64,000 nucleotides of DNA, from assembly GCF_012927355.1 (NCBI RefSeq), contig NZ_JABBGK010000002.1, forward strand, positions 516,758-580,757, given 5' to 3'. The notes under the pieces were generated by a model. That model was not told the origin of the DNA. It did not search any database and was given only the letters and a program-made list of their open reading frames with translations. Source of the stretch: Rhizobium terricola. GTDB taxonomy: Bacteria > Pseudomonadota > Alphaproteobacteria > Rhizobiales > Rhizobiaceae. Of this stretch, positions 1,837 through 15,567 are shown one piece after another (the stretch's first letter is position 1; each line of letters starts with the position of its first letter). Made by a program: the position numbers and the translations under genes.

Positions 1837-3522
1837 TCAGGCGGCCTTGTCGACGGCCCACTTGCGCAGGATCTTGGCGGCGCGCTCTTCCGAGATCTCC
1901 ACCATGCGCGAGAGGCGACGTTCCGGACCTTCCTTGACGCGGCGGTTGAAGCCGCCATTGGCATCGTCGTCCATGGTGAGCAGGTCGTCGGTGCTGTCGA
2001 AGCCGAAGTCCGAACCGAAGCCGTCCATGAGCGCGCCTCCGGTCGAGGCACCCAGGGCGGGAGAGAAGTCCGGCAGCTCGAGACCGGCACCTTCTTCGAC
2101 CCCGCCAGCGATCGCTGCGGACCCGCCGCCTGCGGCGCGTACCATCGGACGAATGCCCATCCAGACGATCAGGAATGCCACGGCAACGAAGGCGAGCGAG
2201 TTGATGATGCCGCCGAGGTTGCGGCTGAACGTTTCCATGATGCCAGGGCCGGCTGCCGCTTCTTCGAGAAGCTGGTTTTCCAGGAAGTCCATGGCAGTCA
2301 GCGTGACCATGTCACCACGAGCGGTGTCGAGACCAGCTGCGGTGGAGACGATCTTCTGCATCTCGGCAAGATAGGCGTCGATCTTGGCCTGATCGACCGG
2401 TTCGCCAACCATCTTGGCGATACGACCCTTGTTGACGACCACAGCGACCGAGACCTTCTCGACCGTGTAGCTGTTCTTGACCGTGGCAACCGTCTTGCTG
2501 TTGATCTCGTAATTGGTCTGCTCTTCCTTCTTGTCCTGTTCGTCGGACGATTCCGGACCCGGGGTGGCGCCCTGAACGTCACCCTGCGGGATGTTCTGTT
2601 CGACGGTGGCGGCCGAGTCGGACTGCTTGCTCTGGGACTTCTGGTTTTCCTTGGTCACACGAACCGAACGTTCAACACGTGATTCGGGATCGTAGGTCGT
2701 CTCCTGGATCTGCTGGGTATCGGTATTGAGCTGGGCCGTGACCGACGAACGGAAGTTGTCCATGCCAAGGAAGGGTGCAAGCGCCTTGTCGATGTTCTGT
2801 TCGATTTCCTGCTGGACAGACTGGACGACACCGAGCGAACGGGTCGCGGCACCGCCGGTCTCGTCGCCTGAAGCGAGAAGCTGGCCGGTCGAATCAAGAA
2901 TCGTCACATCCTCGACATCGAGGCCCGGGACGGACGATGCGACCAGATGACGGATGGAGGCGGCGGCCTTGCGACCCGTCTCGGTCGATGCGCGGACCAT
3001 GACGGATGCGGTGGGCTTCTGCTCGCCGCGACGGAAGTTGCCGACGTCGGGCATGACGATGTGAACGCGGGCGGCCGCGATGCCGCTGATCTGCTGGATG
3101 GTGCGTGCGACTTCACCTTCCAGAGCGCGGACCCGGGTCACCTCCTGCATGAACGAGGTCAGGCCAAGCGAACCAACGTTGTCGAAGAGCTCATAGCCGG
3201 CATTGGCGCTGTTCGGCAGGCCGCGCTCGGCAAGGAGCAGACGGGCCTTGCCGGTCATGCCGACAGGCACCTTGACGCTCTTGCCATCGGTGCCCACTTC
3301 GAAGTCGATACCGGCTTCGGCAAGTGCGATGCTGACCTGATTGAGATCGGTTGTTTCGAGGCCTACGTAAAGGGTTTCGTAGGCGGGCTTGTTGACAAAA
3401 ATCGCAGCGGCGATGATGAGCGCGAAGGAAACGACGGTGATGCCACCGATGGCCAGCAATCGCGTCTGGCCTAGTGACGCCATGTTCTTAAAGAACTGAA
3501 GTAATTGATTTAACAGATTCAT
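1837..3522 (-). CDS. fliF: Flagellar MS-ring protein FliF
   Basis: FliF forms the inner-membrane MS ring on which the basal body, FliG rotor and type III export gate assemble. The start was set at the internal ATG at 3522 (MNLLNQLLQFFKNMASLGQ), giving 561 residues as usual for rhizobial FliF; an upstream ATG at 3546 would add eight residues. A first membrane segment lies near residues 25-45, the YscJ/FliF ring-building domain follows, and a second membrane segment sits near 440-465. The acidic C-terminus (DDLLTMDDDANGG, then ISEERAAKILRKW) is the FliG-binding tail. A 163 bp gap separates it from cheT. Confidence 0.95.
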   Translation of the reverse strand: MNLLNQLLQFFKNMASLGQTRLLAIGGITVVSFALIIAAAIFVNKPAYETLYVGLETTDLNQVSIALAEAGIDFEVGTDGKSVKVPVGMTGKARLLLAERGLPNSANAGYELFDNVGSLGLTSFMQEVTRVRALEGEVARTIQQISGIAAARVHIVMPDVGNFRRGEQKPTASVMVRASTETGRKAAASIRHLVASSVPGLDVEDVTILDSTGQLLASGDETGGAATRSLGVVQSVQQEIEQNIDKALAPFLGMDNFRSSVTAQLNTDTQQIQETTYDPESRVERSVRVTKENQKSQSKQSDSAATVEQNIPQGDVQGATPGPESSDEQDKKEEQTNYEINSKTVATVKNSYTVEKVSVAVVVNKGRIAKMVGEPVDQAKIDAYLAEMQKIVSTAAGLDTARGDMVTLTAMDFLENQLLEEAAAGPGIMETFSRNLGGIINSLAFVAVAFLIVWMGIRPMVRAAGGGSAAIAGGVEEGAGLELPDFSPALGASTGGALMDGFGSDFGFDSTDDLLTMDDDANGGFNRRVKEGPERRLSRMVEISEERAAKILRKWAVDKAA

Positions 3523-12580: not shown

Positions 12581-13951
12581 CTACCGGTCAGTGTCTTCCA
12601 TGAGGAACAACGGAAACAAGACAACAAAGCGCGCGCCTCCACCGGGGGCTTCCGACACGGCTATCGATCCCGCATGCGCCTCGACGAGATTTCTGACGAC
12701 GGCGAGCCCCAGGCCGGCTCCTCCGGTCTTGCGGGCACGCGAGGGGTCCAGCCGAACGAAGGGCTCGAACAGGCTGTCGCGGTTCTCCTGCGCGATGCCC
12801 GGACCTTCGTCATCAACGGTCAGGACAATCGACGAACCCTCGACATCCAGCGACACATGCGCGACGCGTCCGTACTTGACGGCATTGCCGACGAGGTTGG
12901 CTACGATGCGGCGTAGCGCCAGCCGGTCCCCGATCAGCATGGCCTTGCGGGCAGCGGGCGAGATCGACAGGGTGCGCGACGACGCCGGGATCTCGCCTTC
13001 GAGGACCTCCACCTCGACGATTGAGGCAAGTTCAAGCAGTTCCTCGTCGAGCGAGCCGACACCGGCTCGGCCGGCCAGCAAGGCATTGTCGAGCAGCATG
13101 ATCATATCGCCGATGTCGGCAACGGCACGCTCGCGTTCTGCCTCATCGTGGATTTGTTCCACCCGCAGGCGAAGCCGGGTGGCGAAGGTGCGAACGTCGT
13201 GCTGGATGCCGCCGATCAGGGCGAAGCGCCCGGCGATCACCGAATGGAGACGGTTCTGCAGGCGATCGAAGGCGCGGACCAGGGTGCGTGTTTCGGGTGC
13301 GGAAAAACGGACATCGGGGACGGATACCGGAGCCGCAGCCGGATCCATCTGGTCGACGGCGGCGGCAAGGCGCCTCAAGGGCTTCAGCTCCCGGTGCAGC
13401 ATGAGGATCGCGACCAATGCGGCCAGCGTGCCGAAAAGACCGGCACCGAGGCCGGCGGGCAGGCCATTCGATGCAACGAGAAACGGTGTGCGGGTCTCCA
13501 GGATCAGCACGGCGGTTCCTTCAAGCGCCACAGTGAATTCGACGGGATTGTTCTGGCCGCCGAACAAGCGCGGCAGGGACGAACGTTCGCCGTTGCGCGC
13601 CAGAAGCGTCACCGCCAGAAGCCGGTCCCCCAGCAGGTCGCGATAGGGCGCGAAACGATCCTCCGACATCACGTCCACGTCGATCCCCGCTCCCGAAGAC
13701 GTCAGATCGTCTTCGATACGCAGGTCGAGAATGGCGGAATTGAACGCAGCCAGGAGCTCGGGGCGGCGCCCGACCTCGGTTTCCCGCACCACGGCCGCGA
13801 TCGCCGCCACCTGTTGCGGCGTAGGCAGCGCGGCAGCCCGGCGCAGACCGTTCGAAAGGTAGTAGGACGAGAGCAGGATGATCCAGACCGCCAGAAGCGC
13901 CGTGACCACGATAGCCGCGAGCCGGGCCGAGAGGCTGAGGTTCGGCATCAC
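12581..13951 (-). CDS. Two-component sensor histidine kinase
   Basis: This 456-residue membrane kinase has a TM segment near residues 12-30, a periplasmic domain of about 135 residues, a second TM near 165-185, a HAMP region, an H-box (GGIQHDVRTFATRLRLRVEQ), and a HATPase with N-box (VANLVGNAVKYG), DDEGPGI and GGAGLGLAVV. The H-box reads HDVRT rather than HELRT. It overlaps the response regulator by 4 bp and is its cognate partner. The signal is unknown. The divergent secreted proteins at 14870 and 15277 are candidate targets or signal-related factors. Confidence 0.88.
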   Translation of the reverse strand: MMPNLSLSARLAAIVVTALLAVWIILLSSYYLSNGLRRAAALPTPQQVAAIAAVVRETEVGRRPELLAAFNSAILDLRIEDDLTSSGAGIDVDVMSEDRFAPYRDLLGDRLLAVTLLARNGERSSLPRLFGGQNNPVEFTVALEGTAVLILETRTPFLVASNGLPAGLGAGLFGTLAALVAILMLHRELKPLRRLAAAVDQMDPAAAPVSVPDVRFSAPETRTLVRAFDRLQNRLHSVIAGRFALIGGIQHDVRTFATRLRLRVEQIHDEAERERAVADIGDMIMLLDNALLAGRAGVGSLDEELLELASIVEVEVLEGEIPASSRTLSISPAARKAMLIGDRLALRRIVANLVGNAVKYGRVAHVSLDVEGSSIVLTVDDEGPGIAQENRDSLFEPFVRLDPSRARKTGGAGLGLAVVRNLVEAHAGSIAVSEAPGGGARFVVLFPLFLMEDTDR

Positions 13952-14676
13952 GACACCTGCCGGACCGGCGCCGTCAGCAGATAGCCGTTGTTGCGCACGG
14001 TGGTGATCAGCGCCGAACCGGGGCTTGCCGCATCGAGTTTCTTACGCAGGCGTGAGACGAGCAGATCGACGGTGCGATCGAACGGATCGGAAAGCCGCCC
14101 GTGGGTCCAATCGAGGATCTGGTCGCGGGAGAGAACACGACGCGGGCGCGTCACGAAACAGGCAAGAAGATCGAATTCGCTGCTGGTCAGCGAGACCGGC
14201 CGACCGTCATCGAGGTTGACGAGGCGCGCATCGAGATCGACGACGAAGCGATCGAAGGCAAACCGGCGCGACGGCGCCGATCGCGGCTGCGCGCCAGCGC
14301 GGCGCAGCAGCGCCCGGATGCGGGCCAGCAGTTCGCGCGGACCGAAAGGCTTCACAAGGTAGTCGTCGGCGCCCAGTTCCAGACCGACCACACGATCCGT
14401 CTCGTCACCCTTGGCGGTGAGCATCAGGATCGGCGTGTCGGCGTCGGCCCGCAGACGGCGGCAGATGCTCAGGCCGTCCTCTCCCGGCAGCATCAGATCG
14501 AGAACGACCAGATCAGCGGGCACACGACGCAGGACGTCGTCGAGCTCCGAACCGTCTTCGGCAAGCTCGACCCGATATCCCTCCCGCCTCAGGAGATCGG
14601 CAACCAGGCGGCGGATTTCGACGTCGTCGTCAACGATCAGGATGGTCTGGGCTTGGGTGGTCGGGTGAACGGACAT
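13948..14676 (-). CDS. OmpR-family response regulator
   Basis: This DNA-binding regulator is phosphorylated by the kinase at 12581. I chose the ATG at 14676 (MSVHPTTQAQTILIVDDD); an ATG at 14712 would add 12 unlikely residues. The receiver has DDD at 16-18, D60 in VVLDLMLPGEDG and Lys in LVKPFGP. The C-terminal winged helix (PVSLTSSEFDLLACFVTRPR; DRTVDLLVSRLRKKL; ITTVRNNGYLL) is OmpR/PhoB type. The spacer upstream holds a phased hexamer array suited to autoregulation and to control of the divergent genes. Confidence 0.9.
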   Translation of the reverse strand: MSVHPTTQAQTILIVDDDVEIRRLVADLLRREGYRVELAEDGSELDDVLRRVPADLVVLDLMLPGEDGLSICRRLRADADTPILMLTAKGDETDRVVGLELGADDYLVKPFGPRELLARIRALLRRAGAQPRSAPSRRFAFDRFVVDLDARLVNLDDGRPVSLTSSEFDLLACFVTRPRRVLSRDQILDWTHGRLSDPFDRTVDLLVSRLRKKLDAASPGSALITTVRNNGYLLTAPVRQVS

Positions 14677-14729
14677 GAGTGCCAGCATGCGAGCAAGCGC
14701 GCGGCGGATCAAGCGGGCCGGGGGCGTTT

Positions 14730-14798
14730 GCTACAAATTGCTACAGTCGGGCGACAGGTCGCCACAAAACGACACCTGGCCGCCACACGCGCCCGACA
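14730..14798. promoter_or_regulatory. Phased GCNACA hexamer array, putative response-regulator operator
   Basis: Hexamers GCTACA (14730), GCTACA (14740), GCGACA (14751), GCCACA (14761) and GCCACA (14782) recur with 10, 11, 10 and 21 bp steps. Imperfect copies ACGACA (14769) and CCGACA (14793) lie between and after. Direct repeats on one DNA face are how OmpR-family dimers bind cooperatively, and the array lies between the regulator gene and the divergent secreted-protein gene. Assignment to this regulator is inference. Confidence 0.55.
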
Positions 14799-14869
14799 TC
14801 CGAGGGCTAGCTTCGGGTCGTCATCGCCAGTCGATGAAGAGATCAACACGGACCGACGAGGATCACCCC

Positions 14870-15178
14870 ATGATGAAGCAGATCGCGACCGGATTGCTCG
14901 CAGCAACGGTTACAGTCATCGCCGTATCGGAAGCCAATGCCTGGAACCGCAACCGCACGGTAACCACCAATCGCGGCACCCATTCGCTGAGTGCCAGCGG
15001 CTCCTGCGCCAACAACACCTGCACACGCAATGCAACGCGGACCGGGGTTTACGGCGGCACTGCGACGCGGTCGGGGTCGGTTACCTGCGACCCGGCGTCC
15101 AATTCCTGCAGCGGGTCTCGTACGACGACCGGCCCGAACGGCGGGACGATCTATCGTGAAGGCGAAGTCCATTGGTGA
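14870..15178 (+). CDS. Small secreted cysteine-containing protein, function unknown
   Basis: I placed the start at the double ATG at 14870, which gives 102 residues beginning with a clear signal peptide (MMKQIATGLLAATVTVIAVS, then EANA, predicted cleavage after ANA). The mature protein is rich in Thr, Gly, Ser and Asn with four cysteines (SCANNTC, SVTCDPASNSC) set in loose repeats of the form TRxGxYGGTATRxG. I do not recognise a family. It is divergent from the two-component system and lies about 70 bp past the hexamer array, suggesting regulation by that system. A periplasmic or surface location is expected. Confidence 0.75.
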   Translation: MMKQIATGLLAATVTVIAVSEANAWNRNRTVTTNRGTHSLSASGSCANNTCTRNATRTGVYGGTATRSGSVTCDPASNSCSGSRTTTGPNGGTIYREGEVHW

Positions 15179-15201
15179 CGCCCCCACCGCCTTCATGATG
15201 G

Positions 15202-15238
15202 CCGGCGGCGGGTACTCTCCACCTAGGCCCGCCGCCGG
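15202..15238 (+). terminator. Strong hairpin after the secreted-protein gene
   Basis: An 11 bp perfect GC stem (ccggcggcggg at 15202-15212 and cccgccgccgg at 15228-15238) with a 15-base loop lies between the two secreted-protein genes. There is no T-run, so it could be a processing or attenuating hairpin rather than a true terminator. Confidence 0.45.
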
Positions 15239-15276
15239 TCTCGCGAACAGCCAACGACAATGCTGAGGAACCGACG

Positions 15277-15567
15277 ATGACCACGCATACCCGCTCAACC
15301 ACAATCCTGATGTTCGGCGGACTTCTCGCCCTGCCCTTCCTTGCGATCAGCGCCCATGCGCAGACGACGAACCAATCGCAGTTTCAGGCAACGCCCGAGA
15401 CGCGCGCCAAGGTCTACAAAGTCGCTCGGGCCTGCAAGGCGGACATCAAACAGTACTGCAAGGGGATCGAGTATGGCGGCGGCCGCATCGCAAGCTGCCT
15501 GAAGACCAACGAGGCCGCGATCTCCGAGGGATGCAGGACGGCGATGATCGAGGCGATGGTCCGTTAG
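15277..15567 (+). CDS. Secreted cysteine-rich repeat protein
   Basis: This 96-residue protein starts with a signal peptide ([20 protein letters not shown], then FLAISAHA, cleavage before QTTNQ). The mature part has four cysteines in a pattern like the GLG1-type cysteine-rich repeat found in many rhizobial periplasmic proteins ([35 protein letters not shown]). A role in binding or stress in the periplasm is plausible but unproven. It follows the 14870 gene after about 98 bp with a hairpin between. Confidence 0.75.

Follow-up and report, generated by a model that had tools for sequence, protein, structure and literature searches.

A helically phased half-site array as the probable operator of an OmpR-family two-component regulator in Rhizobium terricola

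The subject of this report is an array of GCNACA hexamers in the window, by which we mean the whole stretch of 64,000 nucleotides of Rhizobium terricola DNA that was analysed (contig NZ_JABBGK010000002.1, positions 516,758 to 580,757). Flanked by a two-component system on one side and a gene for a small secreted protein on the other, it has its closest described counterparts in operators of OmpR-family response regulators. The RstA box of the enterobacterial RstAB system is TACATNTNGTTACA, with tandem TACA half-sites 10 bp apart, and RstA of Klebsiella pneumoniae reads these half-sites via Arg199, Val203 and Arg207 (PMC4117788). ArcA sites consist of two to five direct repeats that differ in predicted strength; most comprise a core pair accompanied by one to three extra repeats, 11 or 22 bp (one or two turns) apart, and the occupancy of the third repeat was left open by the authors (PMC3798270). 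In Salmonella, activation by PhoP depends on the location and orientation of the PhoP box relative to the -10; the box sits where a -35 normally lies or upstream of it, and its hexamer repeats are separated by five bp, an 11-bp step (PMC3335776). AgrR of Cupriavidus metallidurans uses ATTACA half-sites in a 6-4-6 layout, with in-phase extra direct repeats at some operators, and apparently acts by type II activation, including positive autoregulation (PMC7380067). CenR of Rhodobacter sphaeroides, an alphaproteobacterial OmpR-family protein, has a 10-bp-step direct repeat upstream of activated genes; its motif is TGA-N8-TGA, and it is an essential envelope and cell-division regulator with many targets (PMC9275681).

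We consider the array, with a probability of about 0.82, to be the operator of the adjacent OmpR/RstA-type regulator, on which tandem dimers would occupy one face of the DNA and activate the divergent secreted-protein gene and, probably, the operon that encodes the regulator itself. Re-reading of the letters places GCTACA at 14730 and 14740, GCGACA at 14751 and GCCACA at 14761 and 14782, the same five starts as in a preliminary description of this DNA, whose two near matches, ACGACA at 14769 (off the strict phase) and CCGACA at 14793, are likewise present. The steps between the five hexamers, described there as mainly 10 to 11 bp or double, measure 10, 11, 10 and 21 bp. The series 0, 10, 21, 31, 52 and 63 (14793 included) stays within 1 bp of multiples of 10.5, while 14769 (+39) does not. 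The array contains the following elements.

14730..14745, plus strand: GCTACA-AATT-GCTACA, the predicted core operator, a 10-bp direct repeat for one regulator dimer, RstA-box-like
14751..14766, plus strand: GCGACA-GGTC-GCCACA, predicted second dimer site, 11 bp past the second half-site of the core
14769..14776, plus strand: ACGACA (+39) and GACACC (+41), degenerate, with +39 off the strict phase
14782..14787, plus strand: GCCACA half-site (+52), found in 1 of 52 spacers, the window itself
14793..14798, plus strand: CCGACA half-site (+63), with the putative -10 of the secreted-protein gene 9 bp downstream

Chance does not account for the clustering of GCNACA: the highest same-strand count per 64 bp was 2 in 257 and 3 in 43 of 300 order-3 Markov simulations of 64 kb, none of which reached four. 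Among the 1024 plus-strand patterns of the form XYNZWV, GCNACA alone gives at least five non-overlapping copies per 64 bp in the window. When the 193-bp spacer was dinucleotide-shuffled 20,000 times, five same-strand hexamers never arose, four arose 17 times, and four in phase never did. Over the whole window the hexamer is only slightly enriched (136 copies against a shuffle mean of 123.06), so the signal is the cluster. A genome scan for tandem GCNACA, as the preliminary description had suggested, finds the strict triple with 4-5 bp gaps at this locus only: two overlapping matches in the 4.93-Mb genome, both at the array, against 0 for the reversed-pattern control.

Conservation was assessed on regulator orthologs collected from 120 relatives, 63 genomes of the genus, 397 genomes drawn from the order and a named-genome collection. 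The stack comprises 48 loci found by the genome searches, together with eight of L001-L014. Excluded were L001, L002, L006 and L010 as the same contigs as L085, L086, L091 and L097, further L012 and L013 (59% identity), L103-L112 (49-55% identity), L015-L080, and G129, an order match for which no locus was returned; L004 later proved a duplicate of L116, leaving 55 distinct spacers. The closest species-named relative is Ciceribacter selenitireducens (regulator identity 86%), and one Rhizobium assembly reaches 87%. In each spacer, the best-scoring pair of TACA-like half-sites with a 10-bp step served as the anchor, subject to a score threshold; offsets are counted from the start of this core, and the counts of NNNACA and of promoter elements refer to the 52 spacers that pass. 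Conservation at 0 and +10 is partly built in by this anchoring (50/52 and 44/52 end in ACA); that at other offsets is not.

The core pair passes the threshold in 52 of 55 distinct spacers; in 40 rounds of dinucleotide shuffling, 3.6 did so on average and 7 at most. Direct-repeat half-sites about one helical turn apart lie beside the regulator's own gene and are kept in its orthologs, where the core common to the spacers has a 10-bp step and is of the type GTTACA/GATACA-N4-GTTACA/GCWACA. Downstream of the core, with a mean of 1.25 per offset, NNNACA recurs at +21 in 19/52 spacers (eight genus labels), at +31 in 13/52 (seven labels; +30 in 8/52, +32 in 7/52), at +39 in 10/52 (three labels) and at +63 in 14/52 (seven labels). 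Third and fourth half-sites are both in phase in 19/52 spacers, and at least one of +20/21/30-32 is present in 33/52. Furthermore, a half-site matrix built from core pairs without the window was applied, with block shuffles as control, to 35 rows of other genera (duplicate included). Downstream of the core, the scores have peaks at +31, +63, +21 and, more weakly, +41, and the 10.5-bp in-phase component has a z of 9.65, matched by 0/400 shuffles, a statistic that common descent inflates and that is therefore read as conservation of phase, not as independent events. Repeats, phase and conservation are thus observed directly. The core in 52 of 55 spacers and the recurring in-phase half-sites, predicted to be bound, support the earlier proposal of an OmpR-family operator of several dimers, and the comparison of spacers among relatives, also proposed there as a possible refutation, does not refute it. 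As a correction to that description, the half-site across relatives is GTTACA/GATACA-like, and GCNACA is a lineage variant of an RstA-like box.

On both sides of the core, promoter-like elements keep a near-fixed distance.

14808..14813, plus strand: putative -10 (TAGCTT) of the secreted-protein gene, at a conserved position relative to the core, with no -35 recognised
14708..14713, minus strand: putative -35 (CTTGAT) of the regulator operon, at a conserved position and below the consensus-scan threshold
14684..14689, minus strand: putative -10 (CATGCT) for the regulator operon, spaced 18 bp from the -35, with the ATG 7 bp further on

Towards the secreted-protein gene, a -10-like hexamer lies at +78 in 23/52 spacers and at +77 in 6/52 (29/52 together, 14 genus labels; mean per offset 0.75). 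Within the genus, 5 members of a 7-member subgroup carry it at +47, three turns shorter. Towards the regulator, a -35-like element lies at -21 in 33/52 spacers, at -20 in 5/52 and at -22 in 2/52, one of which is the window; 33 of these 40 are of the type CTTG and 7 of the type NTTGAT. The distance from the core to the regulator start, by contrast, varies between 46 and 155 bp among orthologs. A -10-like hexamer on this side lies at -45 in 13 and at -46 in 2 of 53 rows. These distances suggest that the array serves both directions, as had been claimed. The putative regulator promoter (window 14674-14713) would place the transcription start at or beside the ATG, so that the regulator mRNA is possibly leaderless.

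The candidate binder and its partner kinase are encoded side by side.

13948..14676, minus strand: OmpR/PhoB-family response regulator with a PF00072 receiver and a PF00486 winged helix, both above gathering scores
12581..13951, minus strand: sensor histidine kinase, whose start overlaps the end of the regulator; best curated models RstB and EnvZ among the matches listed

The structures nearest to the regulator's DNA-binding domain are those of RstA. Aligned to RstA, the regulator keeps the equivalents of Arg199 and Arg207, and the position of Val203 is occupied by Leu. The array in turn contains a site of the RstA-box type TACANNNNNNTACA (consensus from PMC4117788), reading TACAAATTGCTACA at 14732-14745. 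The curated models do not file the pair as RstAB (RstA 165.5 bits against a cut-off of 330; RstB 162.1 against 478), and the equivalog cut-offs of OmpR (240 against 331), PhoB (200.5 against 296.2) and ArcA (170.6 against 334 bits) are not reached. The kinase stays far below the RstB and EnvZ cut-offs, and both proteins fall below those of all curated models listed (25 of the 96 matched by the regulator and 25 of the 80 matched by the kinase). The regulator may work in an RstA-like manner, yet it is not filed as RstA.

A covariation between recognition helix, readable in 52 of 53 rows, and half-site was considered as evidence of specificity. Met at the Val203 place accompanies GTTACA/G, whereas rows with Ile or Leu carry other second bases, GCWACA for the most part: T stands at position 2 of the second half-site in 22/22 rows with Met, 0/27 with Ile or Leu (one Ile row a duplicate) and 2/3 with Val. 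On the tree, this amounts to three residue changes and two base changes, which coincide in one of three independent contrasts. As the pattern is essentially one basal split on the tree, the covariation was set aside as evidence and kept as a hint only. In one genome of the window's genus (locus L098, G030:C111), the regulator groups with the Met/GTTACA clade, which suggests horizontal transfer.

The divergent gene encodes the other conserved partner.

14870..15178, plus strand: small secreted protein of 101-102 amino acids, with a signal-peptide-like N-terminus (by eye), an all-beta model and no Pfam family

That the array lies between a two-component system and secreted proteins was part of the preliminary description and agrees with the strands found, regulator and kinase on the minus and the secreted-protein gene on the plus strand; across the family, too, the gene is mostly divergent from this system. 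The family shows invariant Cys46 and Cys51 and repeated TGPxG/TRxGSV motifs (alignment A1), and a Pfam match was found in none of 33 members. The protein is confidently modelled as six beta strands (mean pLDDT 84.3, pTM 0.64), and comparison of the model with the PDB gave no match at E 0.001 or better. By iterated profile, the protein stands beside the regulator in 43/56 loci, or in 40/55 without the duplicate and two SH3-like look-alikes (L116, L009), two remnants (L084, L085) being included. Within the genus, it occurs in 15/63 genomes (E 1e-5), 14 of them among the 18 that bear the regulator.

We postulate that the phosphorylated regulator would bind direct-repeat half-sites about one helical turn apart as head-to-tail dimers. 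An anchor dimer would form at 14730/14740 and a second next to it at 14751/14761; with the weaker half-sites 14782 and 14793, the line of proteins on a single DNA face would reach the -10 of the secreted-protein gene. The regulator would then activate this promoter in a location- and orientation-dependent way, as for PhoP (PMC3335776); because no -35 is recognised there, class II activation in the manner of PhoB and PhoP is the most likely mode. Probably it also activates its own regulator-kinase operon, and the position of the core, 16 bp upstream of the other-strand CTTGAT -35-like element, fits positive autoregulation; control of the own operon is less certain than that of the secreted-protein gene. 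We infer, rather than observe, the binding and its cooperativity, the requirement for phosphorylation, the promoters themselves and whether regulation is positive. The signal is perhaps envelope or periplasmic stress, judging only by the RstB/EnvZ-like kinase and the secreted target.

Several observations weigh against this assignment. A good core is absent in 3/55 spacers (L091, L095, L140), and in 4 of the 18 regulator-bearing genomes of the genus the secreted protein finds no match at E 1e-5, two of these genomes keeping remnants. An 8.0-bp component, though weaker (z 3.71), is likewise higher than in all 400 shuffles, and the shuffle tests overstate independence, since orthologs share descent. 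The -10 and -35 patterns were picked after viewing the alignments, and a consensus scan of both strands of 14600-15400 found no sigma-70 promoter, so that the promoter-like elements rest on their conserved position. Genome-wide, GHTACAN4GYWACA gives one match against five in the reversed control, with no excess that would indicate a regulon. A quadruple of ACA in 10-11-10 spacing gives two matches, no more than its control, and the second of the two falls at the beginning of an open reading frame read, without a family search, as the binding protein of an ABC transporter. The regulon looks like one locus. In 19/52 spacers neither a third nor a fourth half-site is found in phase, and the +52 half-site (14782) lacks a counterpart in the other 51; we return to these two points below.

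The alternative that survives best, possible in our view but clearly the lesser prospect, is that the operator serves the secreted-protein promoter only and the regulator promoter merely adjoins it. The direct repeats and the secreted-protein gene point the same way, and the regulator side has a -35/-10-like pair of its own (CTTGAT, 18 bp, CATGCT). In genus g85 (4/4 loci), the -10-like hexamer stays at +78 while the core lies 136-155 bp from the regulator start. Even so, the CTTG/NTTGAT element holds its place at -20 to -22 in 40/52 spacers, g85 included (ATTGAT), which fits a joint constraint. We regard it as unlikely that the core pair is the only functional part and that the other hexamers are chance, remnants or lineage ornament, as the 19 spacers without in-phase third or fourth half-site and the solitary +52 might suggest; +21, +31 and +63 lie far above the mean per offset, in seven to eight genus labels, and the spacer shuffles never yielded five hexamers. 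That the array belongs to some other DNA-binding protein (a regulator paralogue or a nucleoid protein, for instance) seems more doubtful still: a 53%-identical regulator is encoded elsewhere in the same genome and OmpR-type regulators share their half-site style, but the array adjoins this regulator across genera, and the regulator's nearest solved relatives bind such sites. It is highly improbable that there is no regulator operator at all, only plasmid-type iterons (of which short tandem same-strand repeats are typical), a structured RNA leader or a low-complexity run, since the array sits between the two-component system and a co-conserved gene with conservation tracking helical phase, the single Rfam match in 14500-15400 up to E 1 reaches 17.7 bits where the gathering score is 60, the leader fold is ordinary (z -0.98), and no structured RNA or intrinsic terminator was found in the stretches scanned.

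A bolder reading, clearly less likely than not in our view, is that the spacer forms a continuous single-face strip of about six turns joining two divergent promoters. The number of dimers would change in whole-turn evolutionary steps (core to -10: 78 against 47 bp) and rotational phase to RNA polymerase would be kept, the dimers serving as a modular spacer that tunes the response steepness of a new secreted-protein family.

Other genes lie nearby, and one rearranged locus was noted.

15277..15567, plus strand: Cys-rich repeat protein, PF00839
L146 (G046:C3:361000-365500), 1987-2697, plus strand: regulator-kinase fusion through an internal deletion

On the plus strand, the PF00839 protein is followed by a DUF2934 protein and glycogen synthase. 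A PF00839-like gene, recognised by motif, occurs near the regulator in 12/56 loci (window included; flanks 1.5 to 4 kb), and also where the secreted-protein gene is a remnant or was not found (L084, L085, L087, L092, L123, L124). In G046, the exception among the 15 secreted-protein genomes, the regulator is fused in frame to the kinase end via the deletion, with operator core and secreted-protein gene kept. A literature search found no description of this two-component system and no paper joining GTTACA to such a regulator. As motif sources, UzcR (PMC12864828) and an RstA-like Burkholderia system (PMC9426598) were considered and dropped, the portions available giving no closer motif.

Set beside the known systems, the locus resembles RstA in its OmpR/PhoB-type regulator, its TACA half-sites 10 bp apart (the enterobacterial box against the window's core site) and its conserved arginines. 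It differs from RstAB in its rhizobial setting, its other kinase and target gene, the Leu at the Val203 position and more than one tandem dimer site. With ArcA it shares a core pair and extra repeats at helical-turn steps that differ in predicted strength, but a wider regulon was not found for the operator here. Like the PhoP box (PMC3335776) and the pho box of PhoB (PMC4415409), it is predicted to be bound head to tail in tandem, whereas, unlike at PhoP, the array extends about six turns upstream of the -10. AgrR offers the same 6-4-6 half-sites with in-phase extra repeats, around a core that is an inverted repeat, in contrast to the direct repeat here; its apparent type II activation and positive autoregulation parallel what is predicted for this locus. 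CenR likewise is an alphaproteobacterial OmpR-family regulator with a 10-bp-step direct repeat, and differs in its TGA-N8-TGA motif and many targets. Since ArcA (PMC3798270) and AgrR (PMC7380067) provide precedents of in-phase extra repeats, this kind of operator is already known. The locus offers a predicted binding code and promoter geometry linked with a secreted all-beta protein that belongs to no Pfam family, and a natural series of operators, whose predicted dimer sites (one, two or more) lie whole turns apart, in which to study how tandem-dimer number sets output. As a whole, what is added here is a multi-dimer arrangement kept across genera, nearly constant distances to two divergent promoter-like elements, and a Pfam-less secreted family.
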